Assembly: GCA_021775655.1 (NCBI GenBank)
Contig: JAJFHK010000498.1
Coordinates: 1 to 14,892, forward strand
Reading direction: 5' to 3'
DNA from: Filomicrobium sp.
GTDB taxonomy: Bacteria > Pseudomonadota > Alphaproteobacteria > Rhizobiales > Hyphomicrobiaceae
DNA length: 14,892 nt
The translations under genes and the position numbers were made by a program. Under the pieces are notes generated by a model. That model did no database searches, had not been told where the DNA came from, and was given only the letters and a program-made list of their open reading frames with translations. Positions within the stretch are counted from its first letter, which is position 1. Every line of letters starts with the position of its first letter. This document shows, one piece after another, positions 1 to 4,317 of this stretch.

Positions 1-1984
1 GGACGAACCAGCGAGCCGTGTCGGCGCCATAACTGCCGATAAAGGCGTCGAGGTCGATGACGTTCTTTTTCGACTTCGACATCTTCTCGATCGGGCCGAT
101 CGTGACGGGCGCGCCGGTTTCAGCTTGTTTCGCCGAGCGGCTTTTGCCGTCGCCTTCGAGCGTGACAAATTCAGGCGGCAACCACGCGCCTTCTGCTGAC
201 TTGTAGGTTTCGTGGGTGACCATGCCTTGCGTGAAGAGTGCAGCGAATGGTTCGCGAAGATTCATGCCGCCTGCCGAAGAGTGCCCTGCGTCGGAAATGG
301 CGCGGAAGAAGAAGCGCGAATAGAGCAGGTGCAGGATCGCGTGTTCGACACCGCCGATGTACTGATCGACAGGCAGCCAGTAGGCGGCAGCTTTCGGGTC
401 GATTGGCGTAACGGCATGGGGTGCTGTGAAGCGCGCGAAATACCACGATGAATCGACAAACGTATCCATCGTGTCGGTTTCGCGCCGTGCAGCCATTCCG
501 CATTTCGGGCAGTCGACATTCTTCCACGTCGGATGGCGTTCCAATGGGTTGCCGGGTTGATCAAAGGTTGCATCTTCGGGCAATTCAACCGGCAGGCCGG
601 AAGCAGGTACAGGAACAACGCCGCAGTCCTTGCAGTGGATGATCGGGATCGGGCAACCCCAATAGCGCTGGCGCGAAATGCCCCAGTCGCGCAGGCGGAA
701 ATTTACTTTGCGCGTTGCGACCGGTTTGCCGCCCAGCTTCTTTTTCTCAAGACGCGATACTGCTTCTTCGAATGCGGCTTCCGGGGTGAGGCCGTCGAGA
801 AACTGCGAATTGATCATGGTGCCCGCGCCGTCGACTGCTTCGTCGCCGATTTCGAAAGTGTCGGCGTTGGCTCCTGGTGGAAGCACAACGGGAACAACGG
901 GTAGGCCGTAGGCGCGCGCGAAGTCGAGGTCGCGCTGGTCGCCGGAGGGACAGCCGAAAATGGCGCCGGTGCCGTAATCCATGAGGACGAAGTTCGCCAC
1001 CCAGACTGGCAGTAGCCAATCGGGATCGAAGGGGTGTTTGACGCGAATGCCTGTATCCACGCCCTTCTTTTCGGCGCTCTCAAGGTCGGCAACCGATGTT
1101 CCGAGACGGCTACACTCCTCGCAAAAAGCTGCAAGCACCTGGTTGTCCTTAGCGGCAGCCTTGGCGATCGGATGATCGGGGGCAATCGCCAGGAAGGACG
1201 CGCCAAACAGCGTATCGGGCCGGGTCGTGAAGACCTCCACGTCGTTGATGCCCTTCGGGGCGGTGGACTTGTCGAGGGCCCAGCGAATAGAGGCCCCTTC
1301 CGAGCGGCCGATCCAGTTGGCCTGCATGTGGCGGACTTTTTCGGGCCACTGGTCGAGTGTGTCGAGGGCTTCGAGCAGTTCGTCGCCGTAGTTGGTGATG
1401 CGGAAGAACCACTGGGTCAGTTCACGTTGTTCGACAAGCGCATCAGAGCGCCACCCGCGCCCATCGATGACCTGCTCGTTGGCAAGTACGGTGTTGTCGA
1501 CGGGGTCCCAGTTGACCTTGGACGACTTGCGATAAACGAGGTCGTGTTCCAGGAGGTCGAGGAACAGCTTCTGCTGGTGCTTGTAATAGTCGACATCGCA
1601 GGTTGCGAATTCGCGATTCCAGTCGATGGCGAAGCCCATGGACTTGAGCTGTTCGCGCATTGCGGCGATGTTTTCGCGGGTCCACGCGCCGGGATGGACC
1701 TTGCGTTCCATGGCAGCGTTTTCAGCCGGCATGCCGAATGCGTCCCAACCCATTGGATGCAGGACGTTAAATCCCCTGGCGCGCTTATAACGGGCAAGCA
1801 CATCGCCCATTGTGTAGTTGCGCGAGTGACCGACGTGAATGCGCCCAGAGGGATAAGGGAACATCTCGAGGATGTAGCACTTTGGGGAATCGGGTTTGAT
1901 CTCGGCGGTGAAAAGGTCGGCCTCCTGCCAGATCCGCTGCCAGTGGGGTTCGCGATCAGGGGCGTTGTAGCGTTCGACTGCCAT
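1..1984 (-). CDS. leuS: Leucyl-tRNA synthetase, 5' part (3' end outside window)
   Basis: Charges tRNA-Leu with leucine in the cytoplasm (class Ia aminoacyl-tRNA synthetase). The minus frame is open from the ATG at 1984 to the window edge, giving 661 residues of a protein usually about 860-880 long. The anticodon-binding and C-terminal domains are therefore outside. Visible landmarks are the N-terminus [16 protein letters not shown], the HIGH-type motif HVGH at residues 50-53 (1826-1837), the CP1 editing region in the middle with [10 protein letters not shown], the zinc-type segment CPKCG, and the catalytic KMSKS loop at residues 634-638 (71-85). The ATG at 1984 is chosen because it matches the usual start of alphaproteobacterial LeuS. 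The frame stays open upstream with a GTG eight codons earlier, and neither start has a clear ribosome binding site. The gene is divergent from fic/yggS. Confidence 0.98.
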
Positions 1985-2176
1985 GGACGGGGTCTTTTTC
2001 GGTTGGCCCAACACTCGGTAGGCCGGTGTTGGAGCGGCCCAAAGCGCGGATTGCGGACCTTGGCCATTGGAGTTTCAGGTGTTCGTCGGGCCGGAGATGA
2101 CCGCAAAGGTTGCCGGTGGTCAAGCGAGGGCGACAGGATGCGCCGAGGCACGCGATATGGTGGAAAAATGCTTTTT
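1985..2176. other. leuS upstream leader, no gene seen
   Basis: Left part of the 532-base gene-free stretch between leuS and fic. It should contain the leuS promoter reading leftward. An inverted repeat CCAACAC/GTGTTGG lies at 2008-2014 and 2026-2032, 24-48 bases before the leuS start, and could form a small hairpin in the leuS leader. No convincing coding potential was found: open frames here are extensions or shadows of the leuS codon pattern. Confidence 0.5.
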
Positions 2177-2237
2177 TATCGACATATTAGACGTGGTATG
2201 TCGATGGTGTCGACAGATCGTCAACAACATGTCGATA
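2177..2237. promoter_or_regulatory. Distal half-site cluster (four copies of ATCGACAT-type motif)
   Basis: Four related half-sites: TATCGACATA at 2177-2186 (forward), TATGTCGATG at 2197-2206 (reverse), the palindromic TGTCGACA at 2208-2215, and CATGTCGATA at 2228-2237 (reverse). The first two form a perfect inverted repeat with 9-base arms (2178-2186 and 2197-2205). Distances between core centres are 20, 9 and 22 bases, close to one or two helical turns. The cluster lies about 190 bases from the leuS start and 280 bases from the fic start, in AT-richer DNA. Likely protein-binding sites; the binding protein is not shown by sequence, but the wHTH-bearing Fic protein next door is the obvious candidate. 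Confidence 0.6.
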
Positions 2238-2420
2238 AAATCGAAGCCTATGGACACGTTTGGGGGCAGTATTCTTGCACGCAAAAGTTGAACCCGGTCT
2301 CCTTCACCACAAATGCAGGACTTAAATTCAATTTTACCGATGGTTTTCCACTCAAACACATCGCTGGCCTGCTGCTCCCTCGGTCAATATAAGTGGCATC
2401 ACGTACCCGAAAGTGGTTTC

Positions 2421-2502
2421 TATCGACATGATCTTCACGACATGTCGACGGCATCGACAATTCATGTTACATATGTCGATGCAAATCTATTTTATCGACA
2501 TA
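2421..2502. promoter_or_regulatory. Proximal half-site cluster in the fic promoter region (five copies)
   Basis: Five copies with alternating orientation: TATCGACATG 2421-2430 (forward), CATGTCGACG 2441-2450 (reverse), GCATCGACAA 2451-2460 (forward), TATGTCGATG 2472-2481 (reverse), TATCGACATA 2493-2502 (forward). Core centres are 20, 11, 20 and 21 bases apart. Copies three and four form a perfect inverted repeat GCATCGACA/TGTCGATGC (2451-2459 and 2474-2482). The last copy ends 14 bases before the fic ATG and touches TATAAA at 2501-2506, a possible -10 element, so occupancy would be expected to block transcription. That is inference. No better -35 element is visible at the right spacing. Confidence 0.65.
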
Positions 2503-2516
2503 TAAAGCGTCTACCC

Positions 2517-3659
2517 ATGACCCAAGATCCTGCACAACCCCATAATGCGCTTGCTGCACTGCCTCCAAATGTTGAGCTTGAAACTAAGAAGGTCCTTAAG
2601 GCCTGTGTGGCGGCGAGGGCAGCATTGGCAGAACTCAACCAAGCTGGTCAGCTTATTCCAGACGTGGACGTCCTCATTAATACGATTCCACTGCTTGAAG
2701 CCAAAGACAGTTCGGCAATCGAGAATATTGTTACGACAAATGATGTGTTGTTTCGAGAAGCCAGCGACCCCGATTTAGACGGTGATCCAAACGCGAAGGA
2801 AGCGCTAAGGTACCGCGCTGCCCTTTACGGCGGGGCGAGATCAATTTCGGAACGACCACTATCGACGCGCACCACGCTGGAGATTTGCAGCACGATAAAG
2901 GGCGTGGAGATTGACGTAAGGACGACGCCAGGGACTACGCTCCAAAACTCGCATACCGGAGAGGTCATCTATACGCCGCCTCTAGGTGAGCAGAGATTGC
3001 GCGATCTGCTTGCCAACTGGGAGGAATTTGTTCACCGCGATGACGATCTTGATCCGCTCGTTCGCATGGCGGTACTTCACTACCAGTTCGAAGCAATTCA
3101 CCCATTCATCGACGGGAATGGACGCACGGGCCGAATCCTAAACGTCCTGGTTTTGATTGAGGCTAAGCTGCTTGACAGGCCAACGCTCTATCTCAGCAGG
3201 CATATCCTGCGAACGAAGGACGAGTATTACAGTTTGCTGAACGGCGTGACCAAAACCGGCGAATGGGAGGCGTGGGTTGTTTACATGCTCAATGCCGTTG
3301 AATTGACTGCTGGTTGGACAAACAAGCGCATCCAGGCAATTTGCCAGCTCAAAGACCATACGTCCAAATATGTCAGTACACGGCTGCCGAAGATCCACTC
3401 TCACGAGTTGATACAGTTGATTTTCAAGATGCCATATGCGCGAATTTCGCATCTCGTCGAAGCTGGGATCGCCAAGCGTCAGGCGGCCTCGACTTACCTC
3501 AAACAGCTCGCGGAAATCGGTGTTCTTGAGGAAGAGAAAGATGGTCGCGAAAAGCTGTTCATTCACCGCAAGTATATGGATTTGCTCGGGTCCGACGGGC
3601 ACGACTTCGTCCCATATCCAAAAGCCGTTCCAGCCAAGAAGAAGCGCAATGACCGCTGA
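2517..3659 (+). CDS. fic: SoFic-like Fic protein adenylyltransferase with C-terminal winged helix
   Basis: Predicted to transfer AMP from ATP to a hydroxyl side chain of a target protein; the target is unknown. The 380 residues match the usual SoFic layout. A Fic_N region carries the inhibitory-helix motif S65-x3-E69-N70 (SSAIEN), which marks an N-terminally self-inhibited class II Fic. The catalytic loop HPFIDGNGRTGR is at 195-206 with H195 as catalytic base. A winged-helix-like C-terminal domain spans about 295-352, followed by a basic tail. Frame and length support the ATG at 2517, which aligns with the SoFic N-terminus from memory. In-frame upstream starts (2313, 2442) would translate the half-site array and are unlikely. 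There is no Shine-Dalgarno; with TATAAA 11-16 bases upstream the mRNA may be leaderless. The stop overlaps the yggS start by 11 bases. All key residues are present, so it is probably active. Confidence 0.95.
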   Translation: MTQDPAQPHNALAALPPNVELETKKVLKACVAARAALAELNQAGQLIPDVDVLINTIPLLEAKDSSAIENIVTTNDVLFREASDPDLDGDPNAKEALRYRAALYGGARSISERPLSTRTTLEICSTIKGVEIDVRTTPGTTLQNSHTGEVIYTPPLGEQRLRDLLANWEEFVHRDDDLDPLVRMAVLHYQFEAIHPFIDGNGRTGRILNVLVLIEAKLLDRPTLYLSRHILRTKDEYYSLLNGVTKTGEWEAWVVYMLNAVELTAGWTNKRIQAICQLKDHTSKYVSTRLPKIHSHELIQLIFKMPYARISHLVEAGIAKRQAASTYLKQLAEIGVLEEEKDGREKLFIHRKYMDLLGSDGHDFVPYPKAVPAKKKRNDR

Positions 3660-4317
3660 GTATGCAATAGCCTTAGCGGCGACCAAGCAGAGAGTGGTGG
3701 AGGCCGCTAGGGGTATTGGACGCGACCCAGCCGATGTAACGTTGATTGCGGTGTCGAAGACCTTCGGAGCCGAAGATATCCGGCCTGTTCTCGCGGCTGG
3801 GCAGCGTCATTTCGGTGAGAACCGGGTTCAGGAAGCGCTGGGCAAGTGGCCGGAGTTGCGTGAGGGTTATTCCGACCTGACCTTGCATCTCATCGGGCCG
3901 TTGCAGTCGAACAAGGCCAAAGAGGCGGTGGCGCTGTTCAATGTTATCCACACTGTAGACCGGGCGAAAATTGCGCGCGTGCTGTCCGCTGAAATGGACA
4001 AGCAGGGGAAGCGACTTCAGCTCTTCATTCAGGTCAACACCGGCGGAGAAGAACAAAAGGCTGGCGTTGCGCCTGGCGAGTTGGATGCCTTGTTGGCGCT
4101 TTGCCGGGGTGAACTCGGGCTGGAAATTTCAGGGCTGATGTGCATCCCCCCGGTTGACGAGGCGGCGGCGATCCACTTTGCATTTCTCGCCAAGCTTGCA
4201 AAAGAACGCAGCCTTGCGGGCCTCAGTATGGGGATGTCGAGCGACTTCACGGCGGCTGTGGAACTCGGCGCGACACACGTCCGCGTTGGTTCGGCGATCT
4301 TTGGGGCGCGGGGCTGA
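3649..4317 (+). CDS. yggS: YggS/PLPBP family pyridoxal phosphate homeostasis protein
   Basis: Cytoplasmic single-domain PLP-binding protein involved in vitamin B6 and amino-acid homeostasis; no enzyme activity is established for the family. The 222 residues are the usual length. The PLP lysine is K37 in AVSKTF, followed by the family segments HFGENRVQE, HLIGPLQSNK, IQVNTG, LSMGMSSDF and the C-terminal HVRVGSAIFG, together forming the alanine-racemase-like barrel. The ATG at 3649 is chosen because TIM-barrel homology begins just after it. It lies inside the last codons of fic (11-base overlap), preceded by an AAGAAGAAG purine run, so translation is probably coupled to fic. A longer in-frame start at 3436 would encode a low-complexity extension read through the fic gene and is rejected. 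Confidence 0.96.
   Translation: MTAEYAIALAATKQRVVEAARGIGRDPADVTLIAVSKTFGAEDIRPVLAAGQRHFGENRVQEALGKWPELREGYSDLTLHLIGPLQSNKAKEAVALFNVIHTVDRAKIARVLSAEMDKQGKRLQLFIQVNTGGEEQKAGVAPGELDALLALCRGELGLEISGLMCIPPVDEAAAIHFAFLAKLAKERSLAGLSMGMSSDFTAAVELGATHVRVGSAIFGARG

Follow-up and report, generated by a model that had tools for sequence, protein, structure and literature searches.

In the type II toxin-antitoxin system Phd-Doc, a Fic-fold toxin is kept under autorepression, with the antitoxin binding the DNA. For Fic proteins that carry helix-turn-helix (HTH) domains of their own, it was suggested in 2009 that the fused domains might act as fic regulators (Kinch and others, 2009; PMC2686095). CccR of Yersinia pseudotuberculosis represses its own promoter through its HTH, the two recognition helices standing 70.2 Å apart (PMC9755527). 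The anti-phage protein EcSofic is a dimer whose leaky expression is toxic; its control has been ascribed to an inhibitory helix and a small antitoxin, AS1, and its activation on infection has been called elusive (PMC12249575). As of 2023, DNA binding by SoFic was stated to be undemonstrated (PMC10628234).

Here we describe a locus of Filomicrobium sp. in which an array of alternating half-sites lies directly upstream of a SoFic gene. On the strength of the comparative analysis below, we propose with considerable confidence that this array would be the operator of SoFic autoregulation.

The SoFic gene and its neighbours

The window, that is, the whole stretch of DNA analysed, is 14,892 nucleotides long. 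The genes and protein regions that concern us are the following.

5..1984, minus strand: 5' part of leuS (Pfam), divergent from fic
2517..3659, plus strand: SoFic-like Fic AMPylase with Fic_N, Fic and SoFic-like_C domains (Pfam, PADLOC, NCBIfam, PDB structures)
3348..3575, plus strand: C-terminal winged-helix domain, residues 278-353 (PF21248)
3477..3515, plus strand: predicted recognition helix, residues 321-333 (structure prediction and covariation), with the Q322 codon at 3480-3482
3649..4317, plus strand: yggS (TIGR00044), overlapping the fic stop codon

Judged by its family matches, the fic product is a genuine SoFic: a Fic AMPylase of the anti-phage type with a winged helix at its C terminus. 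It scores 566.8 bits against the NCBIfam equivalog NF046030 (cut-off 550), which places it in the SoFic family, 393 bits in the PADLOC SoFic match and 111.4 bits against SoFic-like_C, PF21248 (cut-off 27); the SoFic structures in the PDB include the recent entries 9tch, 9tcl, 9tc4 and 9tb0. The Fic motif HPFIDGNGR (residues 195-203) follows the HPFxDGNGR pattern and is invariant in the 20 compared sequences except at position 198. Residues 65-70, read by eye, spell SSAIEN, which we take to be the class II inhibitory-helix pattern, and together with the Fic_N domain this assigns the protein to class II. The motif also resembles the CccR inhibitory motif quoted in PMC9755527. A structure model of the C-terminal domain predicts helices at 310-315 and 321-333 followed by strands at 338-342 and 345-349, the secondary structure of a winged HTH, so that the protein is a Fic-HTH fusion. 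Protection against phage by this particular SoFic is putative, as it follows from the family match.

Since yggS overlaps the fic stop codon, it is probably co-transcribed with fic. Of the 103 family genomes, 41 have a SoFic match at E ≤ 1e-60. Twenty-nine of the 41 have a divergent leuS no more than 1 kb from fic, and 20 of the 41 also have yggS on the same strand no more than 100 bp away. In seven further family genomes fic and yggS occupy the same contig on opposite strands. Taken over the window (2-4317) and the family genomes, the interval between leuS and yggS looks like an integration or retention hot spot for SoFic.

Two five-site arrays in the window

A first-pass annotation of this DNA had reported five copies of a short motif upstream of fic, alternating in orientation (><><>, where > and < denote the two directions) with centre spacings of 20, 11, 20 and 21 bases. 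Both the copies, which start at 2422, 2442, 2453, 2473 and 2494, and their spacings were recovered as described. When half-sites were read as 8-base words of the ATCGACAT type and the fit to the lattice was scored over 40 bases, a second five-site array emerged at 2178-2257, which that annotation did not contain and whose offsets (0, 20, 31, 51 and 72) are the same. The upstream array is called A and the fic-proximal array B.

Array A:
2178..2185, plus strand: half-site 1
2198..2205, minus strand: half-site 2, forming a perfect N12 dyad with site 1 (0 mismatches)
2209..2216, plus strand: half-site 3, 2 mismatches
2229..2236, minus strand: half-site 4
2250..2257, plus strand: half-site 5, weak (2 mismatches), at offset 72 as in array B

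Array B:
2422..2429, plus strand: half-site 1, exact match to ATCGACAT
2442..2449, minus strand: half-site 2, 1 mismatch, N12 dyad with site 1
2453..2460, plus strand: half-site 3, 1 mismatch
2473..2480, minus strand: half-site 4, N12 dyad with site 3
2494..2501, plus strand: half-site 5, divergent N13 from site 4, running into TATAAA

Simple arithmetic (10.5 bp per turn) places the array B offsets of 0, 20, 31, 51 and 72 within about 0.15 turn of one helical face, in agreement with the first-pass annotation. The perfect 9-base inverted repeat reported for array B is present (2451-2459/2474-2482) and is accompanied by an additional perfect 10-base inverted repeat at 2471-2480/2494-2503. It also holds that the last half-site adjoins TATAAA (2501-2506), which is followed by the fic ATG at 2517.

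The five-site lattice fits with 2 mismatches in 40 bases at 2422 and 4 in 40 at 2178. The next-best fits in the window (6 and 7 mismatches) come from these two arrays as read from the minus strand, after which the count rises to 15; in 20 order-1 shuffles of the window, the best plus-strand fit had between 13 and 20 mismatches. Arrays A and B are identical in 35 of 40 half-site bases and in only 13 of 40 spacer bases, as expected if selection, and not recent copying, keeps the half-sites.

The N12 dyad, allowing up to one mismatch, is present four times in the organism's own genome (3.19 Mb, 70% complete), three times within the window. The fourth copy (C205:783) lies inside a 554-codon open reading frame. 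Outside the window, one place matches with 2 mismatches and 14 match with 3. Since the one remaining dyad with up to one mismatch is intragenic, a wider regulon in this genome is unsupported.

Conservation of the lattice across SoFic loci

The best 80 of 585 SoFic-like loci in genome contigs were combined with loci from relatives, the phylum, the family, single regions and plasmids. This gave 148 loci with a fic match, which were reduced to 135 non-redundant loci by dropping five with a short protein or fewer than 100 bases upstream (L084, L145, L149, L155 and L168) and eight near-duplicates at 95%. SoFic-like loci span Pseudomonadota, Planctomycetes, Acidobacteria, Cyanobacteria, Verrucomicrobia and Gemmatimonadetes (taxa as labelled; many are metagenome bins, and single labels may err).

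Allowing at most 2 mismatches in 16 bases of canonical letters, convergent pairs were found at N11 in 60 of the 135 loci and at N12 in 13, and divergent pairs at N3 in 56 and at N13 in 52. Divergent N13, the arrangement of sites 4 and 5 in array B, is therefore one of four spacings favoured family-wide. At the remaining spacings from 0 to 25 no more than six loci had a pair (convergent N22, six), except for divergent N24 with 15 of 135. Controls run for the convergent pairs, with the reversed motif and with coding sequence, gave 0 at every spacing from 0 to 25. The idea of N12 as the sole family spacing proved too narrow, given that a scan of spacings 0-30 over 80 loci showed N11 to be commoner.

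The half-site letters vary among loci, and the spacing is constant. A letter-free search was accordingly scored for any 8-mer repeated at convergent N11/N12 and divergent N3/N13 spacings, a score of at least 12 counting as a lattice. By this measure 124 of 135 loci carry one, compared with 3 of 135 shuffled upstream regions and 1 of 135 coding segments, and the median number of half-sites per lattice-bearing locus is 7 (n = 124). Frequent half-site starts relative to the ATG are -97<, -76>, -57<, -46>, -27< and -6>. Array B has the same order (><><>) and gaps (12, 3, 12 and 13) as the family five-site arrangement but sits about 18 bp further upstream.

A search upstream of related SoFic-like genes had been suggested as a check in the first-pass annotation, with absence of the motif from close fic orthologues named as its refutation. 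The lattice recurs in distant bacteria (124 of 135 loci), and the closest orthologue, L110 (79%), has the motif. Three close relatives (L030, L031 and L114) keep the lattice with other half-site letters and an altered recognition helix. Among 99 relatives, nine genomes besides our own contain the dyad with at most one mismatch: it lies upstream of fic in G031, G040 and G041 and between leuS and yggS in G019 and G034, and single dyads occur in G018, G050, G087 and G097.

Eleven of the 135 loci scored below 12. Seven of these (L036, L091, L134, L135, L137, L143 and L144) have glutamine at residue 322, so the RQ helix occurs in some loci where no lattice was detected. A distant subfamily (L138, L141, L142, L146, L147, L151, L152 and L154; 41-44% identity) has helices such as SRLTATKYL, and its half-sites seem to be of TATACAT type or similar, with weaker support, as several of the picks are low-complexity.

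Covariation of half-site letters with the recognition helix

Covariation was analysed in 111 of the 135 loci. Of the 24 left out, 11 did not reach a score of 12 and 13 had no CA at half-site positions 6-7. The choice of register favoured CA 1.15-fold, which makes positions 6-7 uninformative. Among all 319 protein columns, the highest adjusted mutual information with half-site positions 3, 4 and 5 belongs to residue 322 (0.59, 0.56 and 0.38), which stands second in the predicted recognition helix H321-333. It also leads against positions 2-5 jointly, with a value of 0.63 that exceeds the column mean by 6.1 standard deviations. Residue 320 is the runner-up in the joint measure and leads for position 1, and residue 323 leads for position 2.

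Helices beginning with RQ mostly accompany CGACA, RV accompanies GAACA, RH xCCAT, TRK ACCCA or ACACA, and SRN AGTGCAT. Counted by residue 322 and core, there are 72 loci with Q and CGA, 8 with V and GAA, 6 with E and CGA, 6 with H and TTC, CGC or TAC, and 4 with K and ACC or ACA. There are counter-examples: three lattice loci with Q322 depart from the CGA core (two AAA, one TAA), and E322 (six loci) accompanies CGA just as glutamine does.

Among protein pairs of 65-95% identity, which are related by descent and do not count as independent, a difference at residue 322 was seen in 78% of the 120 pairs whose cores had changed (positions 2-5 differing by two or more letters) versus 1% of the 484 pairs with the same core. 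A tree built from residues 1-285 alone requires no fewer than 20 changes of the core (positions 3-5) and no fewer than 22 of residue 322. When the core was evolved along this tree in 5000 simulations (1000 at each of 5 rates), adjusted mutual information peaked at 0.407, compared with the observed 0.744. A stricter binary independent-pairs test had 4 pairs on supported branches, a number too small for significance, and gave about 2.6 in agreement, 0 in disagreement and 1.4 tied.

It is the recurrence of the lattice upstream of SoFic genes, together with this covariation of letters and helix, that lets the regulator be named as SoFic itself, which is very probably the binder of the lattice. The covariation speaks to binding indirectly and does not bear on repression.

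Position relative to the consensus promoter and probable sign of regulation

In 35 aligned loci that share the -57< or the -46> site, the consensus contains TTGACA from -62 to -57 and TAnncT from -39 to -34, 17 bp apart. Each of these -35 and -10 hexamers shares one base with a half-site, the -27 half-site falls at the expected transcription start, and the -6 half-site overlaps the ATG. Half-sites that adjoin the consensus promoter and extend over both the ATG and the presumed transcription start fit repression. In the window, a scan for sigma-70-like promoters returned none on the fic strand, and the TATAAA at 2501-2506 is suggestive, with no clear -35. The lattice lies upstream of fic as a candidate palindromic operator, the promoter embedding being taken from the consensus of the 35 loci.

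The sole promoter-like match in the window (2213-2184; 9/12, with 0.7 expected by chance) falls within array A on the minus strand. It faces leuS, the ATG of which is about 194 bp from the near end of the array. Array A sits at too great a distance from the fic promoter for a direct block and may therefore loop with array B or act towards leuS. Lattice pairs beyond -220 were found in 9 of 111 loci with 600 bp upstream, the window included, so a distant second array is uncommon.

The proposal of cooperative binding by a dimeric regulator that represses fic is supported. Recurrence and covariation give the regulator a name, SoFic, which is a dimer in PMC12249575, and the position of the sites fits repression; the sign itself we infer from the lattice lying over the promoter and from the example of CccR, and autorepression is the best-supported function. 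Computation shows the lattice, how it is conserved, that it accompanies SoFic and that it has co-evolved with the recognition helix; binding, cooperativity, repression and release during phage attack are predicted.

In the proposed mechanism, a SoFic dimer would dock its two C-terminal winged-helix recognition helices on half-sites about two helical turns apart, and several such dimers would be aligned on one DNA face across the promoter. Bound SoFic would block the promoter, the transcription-start region and, in many loci, the start codon, so that expression of a toxic defence AMPylase, and of the overlapping yggS, would be kept low. A low level would matter because leaky EcSofic is toxic (PMC12249575). 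By arithmetic, half-sites 19-21 bp apart are separated by 65-71 Å, which, set against the 70.2 Å between the CccR helices (PMC9755527), suggests that one dimer could span convergent N11/N12 or divergent N13 pairs; neighbouring dimers would then share one DNA face.

The array may in addition act as a restraint encoded in DNA, although we regard this as rather unlikely. SoFic would be held there as an inactive or deAMPylating dimer, and phage attack, through removal or remodelling of host DNA or a shift in nucleotide levels, would free the enzyme and open the promoter in one step, with array A tuning the response by looping. If this were true, the fused toxin would bring with it a transcriptional brake of its own, and a helix-to-half-site code that can be read would have diversified across distant bacteria.

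A little less probable again is that activation of transcription is the main effect of SoFic binding to the array, or that the DNA serves chiefly to control the enzyme activity of SoFic and not transcription. DNA binding has been proposed to shift CbFic2 toward a deAMPylating dimer (PMC10628234), and the SoFic C-terminal domain affects toxicity (PMC12249575), both of which would favour control of the enzyme. Against this, half-sites that adjoin -35 and -10 and cover the start region and ATG in 35 loci are better suited to repression, and CccR is a repressor (PMC9755527).

We consider it improbable that control of fic through the array belongs to an unlinked host transcription factor and that the Fic protein does not bind. 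Host regulators run many toxin and defence genes. However, the lattice accompanies SoFic in several phyla and in all five plasmid loci examined (5/5), and its half-site letters change with the SoFic recognition helix; a host factor would explain neither the association nor the covariation. There is still less to be said for a role of the repeats in RNA, as attenuator or terminator hairpins, or at the end of a mobile element. Pairing between inverted repeats is possible, and the window has one weak terminator-like stem (0.5 expected by chance), yet no Rfam family reaches its gathering threshold in the window, the spacings are near whole helical turns, the letters covary with a protein helix, and the two arrays match in half-sites and not in spacers. 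Chance clustering, with nothing but the shortness of the motif in its favour, has a vanishingly small probability and is refuted by the 20 window shuffles, which fall short, and by family spacing peaks absent from the controls.

Arrays without fic, plasmids and an E. coli relative

The family also provided 58 intervals between leuS and yggS from genomes without fic, or thought to be without it, at this place. All but the two longest (G021 and G007) were scored; the interval of G490 covers only the region upstream of yggS, and G007 proved to hold fic. Nine of the 56 scored at least 12. Four of these are true-looking arrays with no neighbouring fic (G019, G034, G053 and G049; loci L209, L210, L222 and L223), that of G053 being of ATGAACAT type, and the scores of G003, G004, G016, G020 and G504 were judged by eye to be due to chance, as they came from GC- or AT-rich words or scattered sites. 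A native leuS/yggS element as the source of the arrays was rejected, 47 of the 56 intervals scoring below 12. SoFic-like_C at E ≤ 0.001 is absent from G019, G034, G053 and G049, and for this reason the orphan arrays are read as probable scars of lost fic genes, with the caveat that the genomes are incomplete. A phage source was unsupported, with a match in 1 of 50,697 phage records at the limit used.

SoFic-like genes were seen in 265 plasmid records, 161 of them from Salmonella, and in L172, L173 and L176 the plasmid gene lies near repC or repA. With a Photorhabdus fic as query, SoFic-like DNA was detected in 45 of 5,426 E. coli genomes. The SoFic of E. coli KW21 (L235) has 358 residues, the same length as the 9vjc chain, and an RQ recognition helix. 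Upstream of position 1423, its lattice has ATCGACAT at -169<, -99<, -48> and -29<, ATCGACAC at -118>, and weaker half-sites of ATAAACAT at -129<, -59< and -8>. Strong ATCGACAT and weak ATAAACAT grades thus occur in one promoter, perhaps setting the order of filling. Downstream of the E. coli SoFic gene comes another gene annotated as Fic family (L235:2711-3724), and a nearby mobH relaxase gene suggests an integrative element.

Comparison with known systems

In Phd-Doc the DNA-binding part is the antitoxin, whereas in SoFic the DNA-binding domain is fused to the toxin. CccR is similar in that a class II Fic protein with a C-terminal HTH sits as a dimer on its own promoter, with its helices about 70 Å apart (PMC9755527). 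It differs in being a secreted effector, with 29% identity at 45% coverage to SO_4266, and in binding a single palindrome, AGATAATCAT-N26-ATGATAATCT, where SoFic loci have a lattice of 8-base half-sites (PMC9755527). The N26 geometry was found in 0, 1 and 16 of 80 SoFic loci at up to 2, 3 and 4 mismatches, respectively. As the favoured spacings are convergent N11/N12 and divergent N3/N13, and not N26, the lattice was not filed as a CccR-type operator; it would nevertheless work like one despite its other geometry.

The SoFic/EcSofic anti-phage system belongs to the same protein family as the window gene, forms a dimer and needs its C-terminal domain for toxicity, and the available parts of the two papers describe no sofic operator or DNA binding (PMC12249575, PMC3667792). 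CbFic2 of Coxiella is a Fic protein with a winged HTH that binds DNA, and its authors name SoFic as sharing this domain structure. It was studied with random DNA, the specific sequence being left to future work (PMC10628234).

Set beside these systems, the lattice gives a widespread anti-phage AMPylase a candidate target for its C-terminal domain, and the question of how SoFic is silenced and then activated becomes directly testable. The natural variants of helix and half-site offer a ready-made specificity code. Autorepression by a Fic-HTH protein is already known from CccR, with a different operator (PMC9755527), and no description of a SoFic operator was found in the titles and abstract starts of the matches listed from open-licence PubMed Central papers. 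Within that scope, the putative SoFic operator, its lattice across distant bacteria and the predicted helix-to-letter code appear to be new.
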